Positions 9,380 to 16,261 of a DNA stretch of 64,000 nt are shown here, in pieces. The stretch comes from Clostridium sp. OS1-26. GTDB taxonomy: Bacteria; Bacillota; Clostridia; Clostridiales; Clostridiaceae. The position numbers were made by a program, and so were the translations under genes. Positions within the stretch are counted from its first letter, which is position 1, and every line of letters starts with the position of its first letter. The notes below the pieces were generated by a model. The model did not search any database. It was not told the origin of the DNA and saw only the letters and a list, made by a program, of their open reading frames with translations. The stretch covers positions 3,691,208 to 3,755,207 of the forward strand of contig NZ_CP133264.1 in NCBI RefSeq assembly GCF_030915445.1, in the 5' to 3' direction.

Positions 9380-9970
9380 TTACACTTTAAACAATTCTTT
9401 TATAGATTCAAAGTCCCCCATACCATTTATTAATATTTTCCCTTGAGAATCCATTCTTACTTCAATCTGATTTTTTATTTCATATAGGTTATTTTTTATG
9501 TGATTATATCTATCTGTTAAAAAATGATATCTTTGATTAGAAGAGCCCACCCAAGGTCTGCTTAAGTCTTTTTTTTCTTTAATATAGGGTCCGTCTATTA
9601 AAATATCTGTTATACCTAGCAAATTCTTAATATCATCATTTGAAGACTCTTGTAATTCCTCTAATAAATAGCCTGTAAAGGTAACAATAGATAAGTTTTC
9701 TTTTTTTAATATTGCTCCAAGTTTACTTAGGGCTTGAGCTTGTTCAAAGGGTTCTCCGCCAACAAAGGTAACACCCTCTATTTCAGGACCATTCAATATT
9801 TTTTGTGCCAATTCTTCTACAGTTACTTCATAACCTTTATCCTTATCCCATGTAGATGGTGCCGCACAGCCAGGGCAGTGCCTAGAGCAGCCCTGTACCC
9901 AGATGCAAGCTCTTTTTCCTGGTCCCTCTACATTGGTTACAGATAAAAATCTGTGAATTCTAAGCTTCAT
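9380..9970 (-). CDS. Small radical-SAM protein (NrdG-like fold), last gene of the Ycf46-type operon
   Basis: 196 residues. The radical-SAM cluster motif CxxxCxxC is at Cys28, Cys32 and Cys35 (GCSRHCPGC), preceded by an NrdG-like N-terminus (SVTNVEGPGKRACIW) and followed by FVGGEPFEQA. Relatives activate glycyl-radical enzymes or modify peptides using AdoMet. No anaerobic ribonucleotide reductase (nrdD) is nearby; the gene instead sits 31 bases after a PH-like/HhH protein in an operon with an AAA ATPase. I infer a partner in that system rather than NrdG itself. The target is unknown. Confidence 0.8.
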   Translation of the reverse strand: MKLRIHRFLSVTNVEGPGKRACIWVQGCSRHCPGCAAPSTWDKDKGYEVTVEELAQKILNGPEIEGVTFVGGEPFEQAQALSKLGAILKKENLSIVTFTGYLLEELQESSNDDIKNLLGITDILIDGPYIKEKKDLSRPWVGSSNQRYHFLTDRYNHIKNNLYEIKNQIEVRMDSQGKILINGMGDFESIKELFKV

Positions 9971-10001
9971 TTAAATATATATCCTTTCTCAATTAACCAC
10001 T

Positions 10002-11276
10002 TTAATAATCAACAATTCTTCCCTTAAGCGGGTTATTTATATTGTCATTAATAATTTCTTCACTCTTTTTAATAACTTCATGTTTAGCAGAATTTTTCTT
10101 AAGGCCGCTAGTTTCGAAGGATAAATATTCTTTTAAATTCTCTGCTTCATGAGGTTTCAAGTTAAGTACATCTATAATATCATCTAAGGATGTAAATATT
10201 ACATTATTTTTTCTTTCTGATAATATCCTTTCTGATCTTTCTAAAGTAAAGTAGGGAAGAGTTAGTAATTGATCTAAAGGTACATTATTGATATTAATTA
10301 ATTTATTTTTAGGTTGATTATTCTCTAGTATGCCTATGCTAGCTTTACTGCTCGTGGATTTTGGTGTATTCTTATCCGATTTATTCTTTATCTGTTTTGT
10401 CTTATTTGGCTCCAAAATTCTTTTTTTAGAAGTTTTTTGTGAGATGATTTTTGAGATATAAGTTTGATTTAAATAATCATTAATTTCTAAAAATAAATTT
10501 GATAATACTTTAAAATCGTTTCTAGAACAATATATATTATAATATTTATTCAAAACTATAGCAGTACTATCATAATCAATATCCATTGTAAGGATATCTT
10601 CCCAGCTAATTAAGATCGTATTTCTTGAATTCTTTAAATATATACCATCATGGCAAATTGCAAATCCTTCTTTAAAATCTGCTGTGCTCATATTATATAA
10701 AGCAATTAATTTTTTATAGTTGGTTATGCCCAGAGATGCCCTTAATTTATTTAATGTCGTAAGTGGTATGTCATTGGTAAGGTATGTATCCATAGCCATG
10801 TATTTTTCGCATATTTCTTTTAGGATGTTGACGGATATTTCCACATTTTCCACGCTTTTTAGAACAATTTCTTTTGGAGCAGAATCCTTATATATATGAT
10901 CTTTAATATCTAAAAGAAATTCAGCTAACATTTTACTACGATAGTCACCATAAATATCAATATTATAAAAGTTATTTAGTATTAAATAATGATCTTTTGT
11001 GTTAAAACAAACAGAATCAAGATCATCCCACAAAATTACATTGCTACAATTTGAAGCATGTCTCCAATATAAGCCATCACTACAAATTGCTAAACCATCT
11101 TTACAGCTTCCAAATATAGTGTTATCGTAAAGCGCAATGATTGCCGAAGTTTTAGGTATTTTAAAGCTTTCTCTGGCATTTCTTAATTTTTTAGGTGGTA
11201 TATTTTCGTAAAAATATAAATCGTCGCATTCATGTCGTTTATATATTTCTTTTATAGTTTCAAATGAAATTATCAT
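10002..11276 (-). CDS. Duplicated PH-like domain plus helix-hairpin-helix protein with GRIVDY tail
   Basis: 424 residues. Two copies of a domain of about 125 residues (about 5-130 and 145-270) share the core GLAICSDGLYW/GFAICHDGIYL, then a tryptophan-aspartate or -glutamate strand (LWDDLDSV, SWEDILTM), which resembles bacterial PH-like domains. A Lys/Asn/Ser-rich linker leads to a helix-hairpin-helix-like segment (INNVPLDQLLTLPYFTLE to LNLKPHEAENL, about 325-390) like those in two other operon proteins. The protein ends in GRIVDY, nearly identical to the tails of four neighbours. Soluble; it could bind DNA or protein. Specific function not recognised. Confidence 0.75.
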   Translation of the reverse strand: MIISFETIKEIYKRHECDDLYFYENIPPKKLRNARESFKIPKTSAIIALYDNTIFGSCKDGLAICSDGLYWRHASNCSNVILWDDLDSVCFNTKDHYLILNNFYNIDIYGDYRSKMLAEFLLDIKDHIYKDSAPKEIVLKSVENVEISVNILKEICEKYMAMDTYLTNDIPLTTLNKLRASLGITNYKKLIALYNMSTADFKEGFAICHDGIYLKNSRNTILISWEDILTMDIDYDSTAIVLNKYYNIYCSRNDFKVLSNLFLEINDYLNQTYISKIISQKTSKKRILEPNKTKQIKNKSDKNTPKSTSSKASIGILENNQPKNKLININNVPLDQLLTLPYFTLERSERILSERKNNVIFTSLDDIIDVLNLKPHEAENLKEYLSFETSGLKKNSAKHEVIKKSEEIINDNINNPLKGRIVDY

Positions 11277-11292
11277 AGCGTTAACCTTCCTG

Positions 11293-12011
11293 TTAGATAT
11301 TAATGGTTATAACAATAGAGTTATCTTCCATAATCTCTTCGCTTTCGATTTTATATCCTTTTTCTTCAACCTTAGTCTTTAGATTTTCATAGGTTTTGTT
11401 TTGAACATTACGTCTATAATCCTCATCTAAATTATTTAAGTTCATGATTATATCTTTTAAGTCTTTTTCATTTTCTATCTCTATCATATAAGATGAGTTT
11501 TCATTAAGTTTAAATTTAAAAGTATGATTATCAATCCTACAATTTATAATTCCATTGATTTGTGTTGAATAATTAACTCCATAATCATCTAAAGTTTTCA
11601 TTAGTATACTTTTGTCTTTAAAGTTTGTTGGATATGATTTAGGTATAACTGTATTTGTATTCTCATTTAAATTTGTAACGAATACTTTTCTGCCTGAGGT
11701 CTTTTCTATTTTCTGCATAAACATAGCTATGCTTTCTTTTAGATCATATTTTGAAAATACTGCTGTCCACTTTCCGTCTATAAACTCCCAAAAGAAAAAT
11801 TCTTTTCACCATTAATATGAGTTTTTATACTATCTCCCCACTGCACAGCATCAAATCCAGCTTTTCTTACAGTACTAACCAATTCCTTCTCATCTTTAAA
11901 ATTTGTTTTAACTTTAACCTGTAAGGATTCAACCATTTCCTCAAATCTCTTTTTTCCCATAACACCGCGCACAACTAATGCTAATGGTATTAGTGCTAAT
12001 GATATTGACAT
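11293..12011 (-). pseudogene. DUF1257 (Ycf35-like) protein with two related modules, frameshifted
   Basis: Two frames, 11778-12011 and 11293-11724, are one gene. If the A5 run at 11795-11799 (T5 in the gene) has six bases, the protein reads on through NFFFWEFIDGKWTAVF to IEKTSGRKVF, about 240 residues. A short hydrophobic N-terminus precedes a module starting TNFKDEKELVSTVRKAGFD. A second module starts TNFKDKSILMKTLDDYGV and ends with a Ycf35-like YENLKTKVEEKGYKIESEE. Start: AGGAGG upstream of ATG at 12011. In cyanobacteria and plastids Ycf35 relatives accompany Ycf46 ATPases, as here. Function unknown; the break may be a sequencing error. Confidence 0.72.
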
Positions 12012-12050
12012 TTAAAAATCCTCCTACATACTATTATTTTAATAAAGTTT

Positions 12051-13724
12051 TTAAAAATCTATTGCTCTTCCACCTCTACTGGATTTAATATCTTCAGAAT
12101 TGTTAGAATTTCCTTCAGATCTATTTTCTTCTCTAATTTCTATTGCTTCATAATTGGTACGATCTTCTCTAGGGGTTGCTGCTACTGCACGTACATTAGC
12201 CCATTCACGTATAGCTCTGATTTGTTCTGCCTGAGTCACAACAAGAGGCACTGTATTCTTTATGGTTTTTTCAAAGTCTTCAAAAGTAATGCTTCTATCT
12301 TCAGAATAAGCTTCAAATAAAGCTGATATTACTGATTGTTCTATTTCTGATCCAACAAAACCTTCGGTTATTTGGGAAAGCTTATTTAAAACCTCATCAG
12401 TTAGAGTAAAATCTCCCTTTACAAAGTCATCTTTGATTCTTTTATTTATATGAACATTAAATATATCTTTTCTTTCAGTAAAAGTAGGTAAATCTACAAA
12501 AAATATCTCATCGAAACGTCCTTTACGCAATAATTCAGCAGGGAGCTGACTTATATTGTTTGCAGTTGCTACTACAAATACTGGCTCTGTTTTTTCCTGC
12601 ATCCAGGTTAAAAAGGTTCCAAATATTCTTGTGGTTGTTCCACTATCTCCAGAGCCTTGACCACTTAGCCCTTTTTCAATTTCATCTATCCAAAGTATTG
12701 ATGGTGAAACTGCTTCTGCAGTCTTTATAGCTTTTCTCATATTTTCTTCACTACTTCCAACAATGCCGCTAAAGATTCTACCCATATCGAGACGTAAAAG
12801 TGGAAGCTGCCACATAGCACTTATAGATTTTGCAATTAAACTTTTACCACAACCAGGCACACCAGTTATCAAAACTCCCTTAGGAGCAGGTAATCCATAT
12901 TTTTTCGCAGAATCAAGCCAGGACTTATTACGTTTCATAAGCCATCTCTTTAGATTTTGTAATCCTCCAACATCATCGATATTTAGATCACTTTTTATAA
13001 ATTCCAAAATACCAGTTTTTTTAATAACTTGGCACTTTTCATCTAAAATTAATTCTATATCGTTACCATCCAAGCTTCCATCTTGAGCCATTGCACGAGC
13101 AAAGGAGTTTTCAGCTTCCTGAAAGGTCAAACCTAATGCAGCTTTTGATAATCTTTCTTTCTCATCCTCATTAAGATTTATATTAATTCTTCCAGTAGCT
13201 CCGTTTACATTAATCATTTCGTTCAGTAAGGATTTTATCTCCTCAGCAGTAGGTAGATTGAAGTCCAATATACTTATATCCTTTTGTAAATCCATAGGTA
13301 GTACTAAACTTGGAGAAACAAATATTACATTTTTAGGTCTAGGGCTTTGTTTTATATTTGATGCAATATCTCTTATCTTTCTTACTATTTCATTATCTTG
13401 ATTTCTTCCGTTAACTCCAAAGAATACATGAAAATCCTTCAGTATAAATACTGCTGCCTCCGAATATTTTTCTATAAACTCTAAGGCTTTAATAGGTGAT
13501 TTTGTTTCCTGTGAGCCTTTTTCTGATTGTCCGATTATTCCAGAGGTTAAACTCCAGGTAAATATCTGCCTAGGAGTCCTTATAGTATCTTTATTGCTAG
13601 CTACATCTTTTATTACCGATAAAACCCTGTCTTCTTCCCATGTAGGAATATATATGTATGGGAATCTAGCTTTTAATAAACTGCATAAATCCCTTTTAAA
13701 TTTGTGTGTAGTGTTTTTCTCCAT
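12051..13724 (-). CDS. Ycf46-type AAA+ ATPase with GRAIDF tail
   Basis: 557 residues. The N-terminal half is the Ycf46-type extension (PYIYIPTWEEDRV, FILKDFHVFF), a degenerate ATPase-like region. The C-terminal AAA+ module has Walker A GVPGCGKS (about 287-294), the pattern PLLRLDMGRIFSGIVGSSEE, Walker B ILWIDEIEK (about 341), and the arginine-finger region RKGRFDE (about 400). The last residues are SRGGRAIDF, a variant of the GRIVDF tail on four other operon proteins. It probably remodels protein complexes using ATP. Start: AAGGAGAG ahead of ATG 13724. Ycf46 itself is poorly understood, so the role is open. Confidence 0.9.
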   Translation of the reverse strand: MEKNTTHKFKRDLCSLLKARFPYIYIPTWEEDRVLSVIKDVASNKDTIRTPRQIFTWSLTSGIIGQSEKGSQETKSPIKALEFIEKYSEAAVFILKDFHVFFGVNGRNQDNEIVRKIRDIASNIKQSPRPKNVIFVSPSLVLPMDLQKDISILDFNLPTAEEIKSLLNEMINVNGATGRININLNEDEKERLSKAALGLTFQEAENSFARAMAQDGSLDGNDIELILDEKCQVIKKTGILEFIKSDLNIDDVGGLQNLKRWLMKRNKSWLDSAKKYGLPAPKGVLITGVPGCGKSLIAKSISAMWQLPLLRLDMGRIFSGIVGSSEENMRKAIKTAEAVSPSILWIDEIEKGLSGQGSGDSGTTTRIFGTFLTWMQEKTEPVFVVATANNISQLPAELLRKGRFDEIFFVDLPTFTERKDIFNVHINKRIKDDFVKGDFTLTDEVLNKLSQITEGFVGSEIEQSVISALFEAYSEDRSITFEDFEKTIKNTVPLVVTQAEQIRAIREWANVRAVAATPREDRTNYEAIEIREENRSEGNSNNSEDIKSSRGGRAIDF

Positions 13725-13822
13725 TTGTATCTCTCCTTGTATGCCAAATTATTAAAATCATACTTATATTAAATTTATAAATAAGGTATAGATAACATAA
13801 AAACTATCTATACCTGCATTTA

Positions 13823-14686
13823 TTAAAAGTCGACTATTCTTCCAATTTTACTAGAAAACTCATTAGTTTTAGACTCAGTTTCAATTTTATTCACTATAAT
13901 TAAAGGCTTAATTCTCTCCAATACATGAGGTTTTAAGGATAATATTTCTGCAAATTCAGCTATTGAATTGAAAGATCCTTTAGTTTCCCTATGATTTATT
14001 GCTTTTTTAGCAAGTATTAAACCTATACCAGGTAGGGAAGCTAGTTCGCCTTCAGAGGCTGTATTAATATTTATTGCTTCTTTTTTACCTTTAATTAATA
14101 TATTGTCTGTTTTATCCCTAGAATTATTAACTTGATTTATTTTAATTTCTTTTGTACTTTGTAGGTTATCTTTAGTCTTTGGAATTTTTTTATCTTTAGT
14201 TAACAAACTTTCTGATTCCCTTGTAGTAGCAGTAAACTCATTTACTATAGATTCTTTTATATTTTCTTGTGAATCTTTAACCTCTGAAACTTTTTTATCT
14301 GAATTTATTAATTTATTTTTTTCTATAATTGCTTTTACTTCATCTTTGGTTAATATTTTTCCTTCTCGAATTGCTTCTAGCCTAATTAAGTATTCCTTTC
14401 TTATCCAAAATGCTTGGATTATTGCCATAATTTGGAGTAAGTTGCAATATTTTTCTAAAGCTTCATAATCTCCTGGGTGACCGCCTGAAAAATAAAGCAA
14501 ACAAATAGATATAATCAGAGGAGTAGCATAAAATATACCCCAATAAATCCATCGTTTAACATTTGTTGTTAAGCCAACATACAAAATAGCCATCCAATTC
14601 ATCATAGGAATAAATGCAACTATTATATAACAAGATTCACTTATTTCCCATTTAGAACCTTTAGATGTAACCGCCATATTAATCAT
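13823..14686 (-). CDS. Membrane protein with C-terminal helix-hairpin-helix and GRIVDF tail (paralogue 1)
   Basis: About 287 residues; ATG 14686 or 14677 are both possible after AAAGG. The N-terminus (about 1-110) has a KWEI...NW...YVGL signature and about three to four membrane spans, then RKEYLIRLEAIREGK. A low-complexity Lys/Glu/Ser linker leads to a ComEA-like helix-hairpin-helix (ELASLPGIGLILAKKAINH) and SLKPHVLERIKPLI, ending in GRIVDF. It is closely related to 14716-15483 over both ends. I infer a membrane anchor that presents a DNA- or protein-binding HhH domain to the cytoplasm. Confidence 0.8.
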   Translation of the reverse strand: MINMAVTSKGSKWEISESCYIIVAFIPMMNWMAILYVGLTTNVKRWIYWGIFYATPLIISICLLYFSGGHPGDYEALEKYCNLLQIMAIIQAFWIRKEYLIRLEAIREGKILTKDEVKAIIEKNKLINSDKKVSEVKDSQENIKESIVNEFTATTRESESLLTKDKKIPKTKDNLQSTKEIKINQVNNSRDKTDNILIKGKKEAININTASEGELASLPGIGLILAKKAINHRETKGSFNSIAEFAEILSLKPHVLERIKPLIIVNKIETESKTNEFSSKIGRIVDF

Positions 14687-14715
14687 CAACCTTTACAATA
14701 ATTTAAATAGAATAG

Positions 14716-15483
14716 CTAAAAATCCACTATTCGTCCATTTTTATTAGAAATATTGCTATTTTTATGTTCATGTTCTAAGCACTTAACTGTTATTAAAGGT
14801 TTAATTCTTTCCAACACATGAGGTTTCAAAGATAGTACTTCTGCCAATTCATCTACTGAATTAAAATATCCTTTAGTTTCTCTATGATTTATTGCCTTTT
14901 TAGCAAGTATTGAACCTATACCTGGTAGGGAAGCTAGTTCACTTTCAGAAGCTATATTAATATCTATGAATTTATTTTTATAATCTTCTTTATCAGATTC
15001 TTCTGATTCTATAGGTGATTCTTTAACTTCAATCTTTGCACTTTTTTCAACGCTGAAGTTAGGTTCTACAACGCCATTTCCGCTAACAGATTGTGGATAT
15101 CCAATGTCTTCTAAATTCATTTTTGAAAGTTTTATTGTGGTTATAATTTTTTTTACCTCAGAATCAGATAAAACTTTACCTCTTTTAATGGCATCCAATC
15201 TAATAAGATATTCTGTTCTTATCATAAAGGCATGAACTATTCCAATTATGCCCAAAATAATAGTTAAACCAGCCGTAAAACTATTATTGATTCCTGCTGC
15301 TATAGCTAATATGAAAGGTATTGAATATATTAGTCCGCTAAATATCCATTTTTTACATTTTGTCTTATATCCAATATAAAAAAAACCTATCCAATTAAAA
15401 AAAGCTAAAGTAAAAGTAAAAAGAATCCATAAAGAATTTAATATTTCCCACTTTTTCCCTCGTGATGTAATATTCATTATCAT
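14716..15483 (-). CDS. Membrane protein with C-terminal helix-hairpin-helix and GRIVDF tail (paralogue 2)
   Basis: About 255 residues from ATG 15483 (ATG 15495 is the alternative). Same layout as the next gene downstream: N-terminal GKKWEILNSLW and FFNWIGFFYIGYKTKCKKW with several membrane spans, IRTEYLIRLDAIKRGK, an acidic linker, then the helix-hairpin-helix ELASLPGIGSILAKKAINH and a GRIVDF end. The HhH parts of the two paralogues differ at only a few positions, which suggests recent duplication or gene conversion. It follows 15502-16053 within about 20 bases. Function not recognised. Confidence 0.8.
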   Translation of the reverse strand: MIMNITSRGKKWEILNSLWILFTFTLAFFNWIGFFYIGYKTKCKKWIFSGLIYSIPFILAIAAGINNSFTAGLTIILGIIGIVHAFMIRTEYLIRLDAIKRGKVLSDSEVKKIITTIKLSKMNLEDIGYPQSVSGNGVVEPNFSVEKSAKIEVKESPIESEESDKEDYKNKFIDINIASESELASLPGIGSILAKKAINHRETKGYFNSVDELAEVLSLKPHVLERIKPLITVKCLEHEHKNSNISNKNGRIVDF

Positions 15484-15501
15484 ACCAACTTTCATAAAAT
15501 A

Positions 15502-16053
15502 TTAGAAATCTACTATTCTTCCTCTATCTTTTGTTTCATTATCTTTAATACTACTTTCTTTATTTTCTGAGATATCTTCATTTGAAATTATATTTTTAGA
15601 TTCTTGTGTCAATGTTATATTTCTATTATCTGCATAAAAAGACTCCTTTTCAGCATAGGTACTTTGAGAATTTATTCTAGTTTCATTAATAAACCCGTCT
15701 ATATCAACGTCATCTAAATACTTACTTTTTATAAATCTACCACCACTCTTTAGCATTCTATCATATCTAATAAGGTATTCTTCTCTTATCTTAAAGACAT
15801 GGACTATACTTATTATTCCCGAGATTATTACTCCATAGAAGGTTAAGTCTGTAAATTTTCCCATTATTATAGTTAAAATTAAGGGCAATGCATAAAGCAT
15901 ACCATAATACATCCACTTTTTACACTTTACTAACCAACCGCAATATAAAAAAGTAAACCAGTTGAAGAAGCCTAAAAAGAAAGTAGGTAATACAATAATA
16001 GAATTAATAATTTCCCACCTCTTACCTCTATCTGTAACCGCCAATTTATTCAC
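15502..16053 (-). CDS. Membrane protein with GRIVDF tail, lacking HhH (paralogue 3)
   Basis: 183 residues from GTG 16053 (AAAGGCTG upstream), overlapping the end of the DUF2997 gene by 8 bases. It shares the N-terminal GKRWEIINS and NWFTFLYCGW...KKW membrane domain and the REEYLIRYDRM segment with the two downstream paralogues. The helix-hairpin-helix domain is missing, yet the GRIVDF tail is kept after a charged linker. That argues the tail matters independently of HhH. Function not recognised. Confidence 0.75.
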   Translation of the reverse strand: MNKLAVTDRGKRWEIINSIIVLPTFFLGFFNWFTFLYCGWLVKCKKWMYYGMLYALPLILTIIMGKFTDLTFYGVIISGIISIVHVFKIREEYLIRYDRMLKSGGRFIKSKYLDDVDIDGFINETRINSQSTYAEKESFYADNRNITLTQESKNIISNEDISENKESSIKDNETKDRGRIVDF

Positions 16054-16261
16054 CAGCCTTTAATTCTTGATGTTCAACCTCATCTAACATTACTTTTTCT
16101 GTTTCATAATATTCTTTTGTATAATCAGAATCCACCGTCTCAGCTTGTAAAATATCTTCTAATATTTTAATGTAATCAGTGCATTTTTTACCTTTTACTC
16201 CTTGAACTTCAGCTTGTACAGTTCCATCTTCAAAAATCTGGACTTTAATTCGTTTTGTCAA
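16046..16261 (-). CDS. DUF2997 family protein, first gene of the Ycf46-type operon
   Basis: 71 residues from TTG 16261 with GGGGGAG upstream. The N-terminus, IKVQIFEDGTVQAEVQGVKGKKCTD, has the DUF2997 pattern of a small beta hairpin followed by a helix carrying Gly-Lys-x-Cys. DUF2997 genes commonly accompany DUF1257 and Ycf46-type ATPases, supporting the operon assignment. It is soluble and of unknown function. The C-terminal extension is acidic. Confidence 0.8.
   Translation of the reverse strand: MTKRIKVQIFEDGTVQAEVQGVKGKKCTDYIKILEDILQAETVDSDYTKEYYETEKVMLDEVEHQELKAGE

Follow-up and report, generated by a model that had tools for sequence, protein, structure and literature searches.

The 64,000-nucleotide stretch of Clostridium sp. 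OS1-26 DNA analyzed here (contig NZ_CP133264.1, positions 3,691,208 to 3,755,207; hereafter the window) contains a compact minus-strand operon at window positions 9380–16261 that includes the gene of a Ycf46-type AAA ATPase. Its eight products, read from 16261 down to 9380, are a DUF2997 protein, three paralogous membrane proteins, the AAA ATPase, a DUF1257-like protein, a PH-like protein with a helix-hairpin-helix (HhH) domain, and a radical-SAM protein. Five of the eight share a C-terminal tail, and the exact C-termini confirm what the original prediction, made from the sequence alone, had claimed: the three membrane proteins end in GRIVDF, the AAA ATPase in GRAIDF and the PH-like/HhH protein in GRIVDY. 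Since the membrane proteins are paralogues, these represent three independent instances (the transmembrane (TM) family, the PH-like/HhH protein and the AAA ATPase) rather than five.

The first membrane protein (15502–16053, 183 residues) has no Pfam match, while its two paralogues carry an HhH domain (14716–15495, 259 residues, HHH_3 with E = 8e-18; 13823–14689, 288 residues, 2.3e-16). The tail is thus retained in a paralogue without HhH domain, as had also been proposed. The codons for GRIVDF and stop in the three genes (15502–15522, 14716–14736 and 13823–13843), and those for GRIVDY and stop (10002–10022) in the PH-like/HhH gene, agree without mismatch with a degenerate GRIVD[FY]-stop DNA pattern. 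The PH-like/HhH protein (10002–11276, 424 residues) matches HHH_3 at 1.4e-07, and its residues 5–93 match the N-terminal part of the PADLOC model BnzA at 4.6e-16. The HhH domains of the operon proteins are ComEA-like; the TM segments of the membrane proteins and the two PH-like repeats were judged by eye. The AAA ATPase (12051–13724, 557 residues) ends in RGGRAIDF, and its tail codons (12051–12071) differ from the pattern at three positions. Residues 284–411 match Pfam AAA (1.3e-30) and residues 6–522 match PHROG 8638 (3.1e-146). It is a full-length member of the Ycf46-type family, including the N-domain, as also shown by an alignment of 62 sequences that takes in Omnitrophota and relatives from Asgard metagenome-assembled genomes, and it has adjoining DUF2997 and DUF1257-like genes. 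The four matches without mismatch are the only ones to the DNA pattern in the 5.88-Mb genome, in which looser variants at the protein level were not searched. Matches with two mismatches were at control level and were dropped.

The remaining three products lack the tail. The DUF2997 gene (16046–16261, 71 residues; PF11211, 2.8e-16) overlaps the gene that follows. The DUF1257-like gene (11293–12011) is broken at a T-rich run into two frames (11778–12011 and 11293–11724), which may reflect an assembly error, slippage or decay; in a relative (L021), it is intact in a single frame of 239 residues. Its label holds by homology, since a gene annotated as DUF1257 (L124, a Pseudanabaena plasmid) is matched by the family profile as well (the profiles cross-match), and not by Pfam, which neither frame of the window gene matches. 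A structure was predicted for the DUF1257-like protein (239 residues; predicted local distance difference test score 87, predicted template modeling score 0.62), and a sequence search of solved structures gave no convincing match. The radical-SAM protein (9380–9970, 196 residues; Fer4_12, 5.1e-37) is NrdG/PflA-like and has the CxxxCxxC motif of the activase type, yet its score against the NrdG equivalog TIGR02491 (114.2 bits) lies below the cut-off of 126.1. CxxxCxxC, together with an invariant EG..R and GGEP, characterizes its family. No glycyl-radical enzyme was found among the Pfam matches of the operon products. The closest relative fetched, Clostridium drakei, has an AAA ATPase 89% identical to that of the window and four such tails (three membrane proteins and the AAA ATPase) in the same order, with no PH-like gene between the DUF1257-like and radical-SAM genes.

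Conservation of the tail among bacterial relatives

To describe the tail beyond the window, we used 81 loci (numbered with L), consisting of the window and 80 relatives fetched with the AAA protein, one genome per species. The core tail was defined as R-x-[IVL]-[DE]-hydrophobic at the C-terminus. Partners were sought with a profile of the HhH domain alone, from which the tail was excluded, so that the test was not conditioned on it. Among the complete open reading frames (ORFs) within 7 kb of the AAA gene, 74 of the 75 that match this profile have the core tail, and the 75th (L062) ends in GRVMDV; no HhH ORF was found farther than 7 kb away in the 81 loci. The tail follows the HhH domain after a variable stretch with a median of 19 residues (range 14–44).

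The tail is restricted to the AAA ATPase and its partners. In the window and most tailed bacterial loci, it is carried by the AAA ATPase together with one or more partners. It is absent from all 179 profile matches to the other core families (radical-SAM 0/53, DUF1257-like 0/57, a second DUF1257 profile 0/9, DUF2997 0/60), some genes being matched by two profiles. It occurs on five of 898 other called genes (at least 100 residues, outside the core families; the simple gene caller made some false antisense calls in GC-rich loci), and all five are operon members: Mrr-like membrane nucleases (L032, L033 and L036) and Gastranaerophilales-type partners (L041 and L046). Beyond 7 kb from the AAA gene, it is missing from all 273 called genes. 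Two frames that fit the pattern were not counted as members, a 61-residue stop-to-stop frame ending in RNVDF, 8.9 kb from the AAA gene (L023), and a 74-residue frame beside the AAA gene (L092).

In 84 partner tails from 53 loci, Gly occupies position −6 in 49 cases and Glu in 30. These tails were picked by the core pattern, and the selection itself therefore sets the Arg, [IVL], [DE] and the class of the last residue. That residue is Leu in 31 tails, Phe in 26, Ile in 10, Tyr in nine, Val in six and Trp in two, and the preceding linker positions −30 to −7 hold 0.3 to 1.1 bits. A partner ending in PGNKLDL (L078) was left out of this alignment. The strict tail on the AAA ATPases (55 of 81) is tighter than that of the partners, with Gly at −6 in 52 and Phe last in 50.

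By record title, tailed loci come from Bacillota, Actinomycetota, Tenacibaculum and metagenome-assembled genomes (MAGs) of Gastranaerophilales, Armatimonadetes and Sebaldella. The occurrence among related genomes is patchy: the family AAA (1e-100) is present in three of seven genomes of the genus, including that of the window, and one of the three is tail-less; in the class (1e-130), it is present in eight of 391 genomes, including that of the window, with tail and radical-SAM gene in two (that of the window and L111) but not in the other six. In a tree of 174 AAA ATPases with the last 40 residues removed, the strict tail requires 17 changes, compared to 54.6 for shuffled labels, and is thus inherited with several gains or losses. 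Loss of the tail from homologous operons had been named beforehand as the outcome that would speak against a shared signal; the comparison was run and did not yield this outcome.

Related or recurrent C-termini were also noticed. AAA ATPases of Asgard-archaeal MAGs (L087, L093 and L098) and one bacterial MAG (L083) end in QLEI, DIEI, EIEI or GLEI. These ends, with an acidic penultimate and a hydrophobic last residue and no Arg, are possibly an older form of the tail. Homologous proteins of 182–201 residues near the operon in L032, L033 and L036 have a second recurrent C-terminus (SYNNFEL, TLQNFEL or TLQQFEL). In L040–L046, L048 and L052, a gene upstream of the partner genes ends constantly in RKVYTIC (RKVFTIC in L055); it is probably an orthologue unrelated to the system.

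Clade versions on plasmids, satellites and phages

Relatives of the AAA ATPase were found in 57 of 72,556 plasmid records and six of 50,697 phage records (E 1e-60), as well as on IMG/VR contigs. Plasmids of Rhodococcus and Paenarthrobacter carry the entire operon with tails, in which the AAA and partner ends are GGRTFEF (off the strict pattern) with GRRLEF, and GGRRIDF with GGRTLDL. A Paenibacillus polymyxa plasmid combines an AAA ATPase ending in YRRISH with DUF1257, DUF2997 and radical-SAM genes and two proteins with TM segments, ending in SRVIHF and KRVIRL. In the Streptococcus satellite phage Javan368, the AAA ATPase ends in TRKVLV and a nearby protein (TM by eye) in NRKIKI.

The phage partners belong to different families, namely phrog_11021, DUF3150, DUF6744 and WGR proteins. 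In the phrog_11021 type, AAA ATPases ending in RALDL accompany partners ending in RALEL, RAIEL and RKLDI; the Arg is missing from two AAA ends (TALDL in L203, VALDL in L205). AAA ATPases ending in RSINLN (L216 and L219) have DUF3150 partners ending in RAILLD and RAVLLD, and one ending in RAINLN (L217) has a 290-residue protein ending in RAVVLD, whose family was not scanned, and a small protein ending in RAVVLN. Further phage pairs are SRAATLDL with SRASMLEL and SRAAMLEL, LSVLEL with SRASVLEL, and RKIS, RKIA or RKLA with RKFA, RKFAA or RRIA. In another set of IMG/VR loci (L148, L153, L154, L157, L162, L171 and relatives), the AAA ATPases have acidic ends (DEDDL, DEGDDL or EEEDL) instead of R-x-L-D-L.

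The wording of AAA and partner tails changes together by clade. We compared the last six residues of neighboring proteins with those of the local AAA ATPase (score of at least 14) for 88 AAA ATPases in 46 clusters at 60% identity. Matches were found in ten of the 46 clusters. When AAA tails were permuted among the clusters 500 times, the count averaged 2.6 and never exceeded nine, and the observed count also lies above all 500 permutations at thresholds of 13, 15, 16 and 17. Replacing the AAA tail by an upstream AAA segment gave two clusters, and a random anchor gene, a milder control with one locus per cluster, gave a mean of 0.9 and a maximum of three.

Copies of the tail also occur inside partner sequences. 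An internal copy (GRALDL, HRAIDL, PARGIDL or GRGIDF) lies within the last 52 residues of 12 of the 17 phrog_11021-type partners listed, and degenerate ones (GGRVLDP, GRRLES and GRVLEP) are found in the partners of the five reduced actinobacterial genomes described below. Such copies fit a short linear motif, and a free carboxylate may therefore not be essential.

Candidate readers of the tail

We favor, with some reserve, a reading in which the tail is a docking motif, R-x-[IVL]-[DE]-[FYLIV] and usually at the very C-terminus, by which the Ycf46-type AAA ATPase recognizes interchangeable partners and brings them to its ring. In the window, these partners would be the membrane proteins and the PH-like protein; in most of them, a ComEA-like HhH domain precedes a short flexible end. 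The AAA ATPase is preferred as the reader since no other component is shared by all of the tail-bearing loci that we examined. The tail would dock by strand addition or in a groove, as suggested by the hydrophobic residues at −3 and −1 and the Arg at −5, which share one face of an extended strand.

A natural deletion bears on the roles of the other components. In the family of L072 (Sanguibacter), the AAA ATPase was found in seven of 81 genomes searched. In five of these seven actinobacterial genomes (G007, G008, G478, G429 and G449), the system is reduced to the AAA gene followed by a gene for a TM protein (by eye), and all five TM partners keep the tail, as GRRLDL (three) or GRVLDL (two). 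The family radical-SAM protein is absent from these genomes (best scores of 104–106 bits in four and 56 in G008; 258 and 250 bits in G432 and G470, relatives that keep the system). DUF2997 was not found by genome search, nor was the DUF1257-like protein, the classical DUF1257 profile not having been searched genome-wide. Partner tails therefore do not need these three proteins, and the AAA ATPase is the sole known component left beside the tailed partner. The stretches fetched around the satellite and phrog_11021 phage pairs agree, as none of the three was detected in them.

In the main rival, which we consider unlikely, the AAA pore would grip and pull the partner tail as a handle for unfolding, and the copy on the AAA ATPase would be a self-substrate for autoregulation. 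The covariation and the deletion speak for it as much as for docking, only a short variable stretch separates the tails from the HhH domain, and the AAA domain matches Cdc48/p97, which is an unfoldase. However, R at −5, [IVL] at −3, [DE] at −2 and the last hydrophobic residue recur, whereas pores usually tolerate loose sequence, and the internal copies and clade-specific matching suggest a sequence-specific pocket.

It is improbable that the DUF1257-like or DUF2997 protein acts as a scaffold that binds the tails of AAA ATPase and partners alike. Most tailed loci not truncated by a contig end contain both genes, which also accompany the tailed AAA ATPases of Omnitrophota that lack the radical-SAM gene (L077 and L079), but neither was found in the five reduced genomes (with the limit given above for DUF1257) or near the phrog_11021 and satellite pairs.

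Still less probable is recognition and modification of the tail by the radical-SAM enzyme, giving a glycyl radical, an epimer or a crosslink. The enzyme is NrdG/PflA-like, a class that acts on C-terminal peptides, and it goes with the AAA tail in most loci: with at least 190 bits required for the family radical-SAM protein and up to two extra residues allowed after the AAA tail, 47 of the 81 loci have both and 19 neither. Among the 11 loci with the tail only, five (L024, L035, L051, L068 and L086) are short or cut contigs, and in L053 the radical-SAM gene is on another contig of the same genome. Three more (L077, L079 and L084) represent an older clade, in which the locus contains DUF2997 and DUF1257 but no radical-SAM gene; the gene is also absent from the genomes of L077 and L079. 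The others are L058 and L064, and no radical-SAM gene was found in the L064 genome. Among the four loci with the radical-SAM gene only, the AAA frame of L042 breaks off within the tail, 15 bases short of the contig end; the AAA ATPases of L075 and L078 end in RARKLYF and YGRILHF; and that of L062 is tail-less, next to the partner ending in GRVMDV. An obligate role is argued against by the five reduced genomes, by the Omnitrophota, whose AAA ATPases end in KERKLE[FL] and in whose genomes the family radical-SAM protein was not found, and by the glycine at −6 usable by a PflA/NrdG-like enzyme, which is not invariant and is replaced by Glu in 30 of the 84 partner tails. The satellite and phrog_11021 stretches, with none detected, point the same way.

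A family relic or generic stabilizing C-terminus that protects from C-terminal proteases and has no reader is very unlikely: although three of the window's five tailed proteins are paralogues and terminal acidic-hydrophobic ends are simple, unrelated proteins (AAA, TM, PH-like, Mrr, TPR, DUF3150, DUF6744 and WGR) end in the tail or its clade version, while other genes of the same loci lack it and its wording covaries with the local AAA ATPase. A sliding-clamp-type motif was rejected by eye, as position −4 is not Gln and no fifth residue follows.

The original prediction of a signal read by one component thus finds support in the sharing of the tail between phyla, in its occurrence on plasmids and in some phages, and in the clade-wise covariation, with binding by the reader as its conjectural part. 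It named two possible readers, of which the ATPase is favored and the radical-SAM protein disfavored as an obligate reader or modifier.

On the docking reading, the AAA ATPase's own copy of the tail probably docks on a neighboring subunit or competes with partners. It would hold the same site there until a partner arrives, which amounts to self-inhibition, or help ring assembly with several partners. The DUF1257-like, DUF2997 and radical-SAM proteins would be accessory layers rather than the reader, although the last of these may modify the tail as a further layer. The AAA ATPase's own tail has decayed in the five reduced genomes (GGGRKVVF, ATAQATA, TAPAPA and, twice, RGRRVAY), which would fit a role tied to the fuller system.

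R20 in the AAA N-domain (RARFP motif) is only a lead, weakly supported, for a residue that contacts the tail. This position is Arg in 53 of 53 tailed bacterial and 14 of 14 tailed phage AAA ATPases, compared to 34% of 73 tail-less ones, a set that excludes seven loci whose tails are decayed or near misses. In a fuller set, it is Arg in 81 of 100 AAA ATPases with an acidic-hydrophobic end and in 28 of 74 others (nine of 14 compared to 14 of 41 by clusters).

Several observations weigh against docking on the AAA ATPase. Its presence in all loci is partly by construction, as the loci were collected through it, and the decay of its own tail in the reduced genomes means that the self-docking part is not general. 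The strict tail is found on only 55 of the 81 bacterial AAA ATPases, and six weaker relatives in Clostridia lack it. Strict tails are on neither the AAA ATPase nor a near neighbor in 70 of 87 viral loci, a count in which some overlapping partners (such as that of L190) escaped the gene caller, and 12 of the 17 phrog_11021-type partners listed do not end in one (five do). As for covariation, sequence composition may account for two or three of the ten matching clusters (the acidic L157 and L162, and L179), and another (L121/L123) comprises plasmid-borne loci of the bacterial operon type. An unclustered viral test at the highest threshold, 18, gave four, with a permutation maximum of five. Bacterial own-tail matching (32) does not exceed permutation (mean 26.4, maximum 33), a test that is uninformative because bacterial tails are alike.

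A broader proposal, which we regard as tentative and rather doubtful, is that Ycf46-type AAA machines, whether of bacteria, plasmids, satellites or phages, use a private, evolving address code. The ATPase's own C-terminus would display the motif of its clients, motif and reader would drift together by clade, modules would be swapped by appending about six residues, and self- and client tags would compete for sites on the ring and thereby set its activity. The exchangeable client modules would, equally tentatively, comprise HhH, PH-like, TPR, Mrr nuclease, DUF3150 and WGR domains and membrane anchors.

Partner modules, known systems and possible function

For domain scans, 63 partners were retained from 85 frames, with near-duplicates and others left out. 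Pfam detected HHH_3 in 47, TPR models in up to seven, and Mrr_cat and GYF_2 in three each. Tailed partners without HhH domain include the Mrr-like nucleases (L032, L033 and L036) and TM-only proteins. The common denominator of the partners is thus the tail and not the HhH domain. In PADLOC (2023), nuclease-type models (PDC-S02, ZorD, LmuA and mREase_IV) match up to three partners. The N-terminal stretch of BnzA from the Bunzi system matches four, including the window PH-like protein (profile positions 5–94 of 544); the remainder of BnzA is unmatched, and BnzB has no match among the 63 partners or ten further proteins.

PADLOC gave no specific match to a core protein of a named defense system, and identity with such a system was dropped for this reason. 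The window AAA ATPase matches only the IetA/TRIP13 models, across the AAA domain, and the radical-SAM protein matches pVip weakly (1.3e-4); the DUF1257-like protein (L021) and DUF2997 have no match.

In the cyanobacterial and plastid group of Ycf46, Ycf35 (DUF1257) and DUF2997, both the AAA family and the accompanying DUF2997 and DUF1257-like genes resemble those of the window; DUF2997-ycf35-fed7 is among the gene clusters listed in PMC4284462. The single AAA ATPase of this group that we examined (L124, the Pseudanabaena plasmid) differs in being tail-less (LQLDIRS), and neither an HhH partner nor the family radical-SAM gene was detected in the locus. There, the AAA gene with DUF1257 and DUF2997 adjoins Hsp70 and GrpE genes. 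In the literature searched, we found no description of a molecular function for the Ycf46 family, or of the shared tail and operon.

Shared C-terminal docking peptides are known from other systems. The C-terminal tip of single-stranded DNA-binding protein (SSB) and the acidic tails of phage T7 gp2.5 and gp4 are C-terminal peptides with a hydrophobic end, shared by different proteins and bound by a common reader. They are long and acidic, unlike R-x-[IVL]-D-F, and we claim no homology; in the window system, moreover, the ATPase itself is tagged and the tag varies by clade. The EEVD tails of Hsp70 and Hsp90, read by TPR co-chaperones, likewise place a single C-terminal tag on unrelated machines, but they are read by the partners, whereas here partners and machine are both tagged. 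The SspB adaptor docks through its C-terminal peptide on the N-domain of ClpX, also an AAA ATPase, but ClpX belongs to another AAA clade and is itself untagged. New here are an ATPase that bears the tag of its clients and the drift of that tag by clade.

The operon is possibly a membrane-associated system for conflicts with mobile elements or phages, although the evidence for this is weak. A conflict role with phages or plasmids is suggested by the Mrr-like, BnzA-like and TPR modules, the mobile carriers and the patchy occurrence. Genes flanking the loci match 22 defense-model families at 1e-10 (102 of 145 listed genes scanned, with no control set, which makes this weak evidence). The matches include RT_UG29, MzaA, REase_II, PDC-S31, AriA and PycTM, and some are generic (dGTPase and GlgB).

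The tail offers a way into a widespread AAA family whose molecular function we did not find described in the literature searched. If the docking reading is true, genomes and phages could also be searched with the tail for clients of these ATPases, and the system would provide an example of an ATPase that carries the same tag as its clients. A role in mobile-element conflicts, as suggested by the modules and the plasmid, satellite and phage carriers, could then be traced by the tag. On the Treponema succinifaciens plasmid pTRESU01 (L122), the gene of an AAA ATPase ending in VRKLEM and a radical-SAM gene lie directly before genes for a protein annotated as phage baseplate assembly protein V and for a 1164-residue protein, which makes a link to an injection-type apparatus possible.

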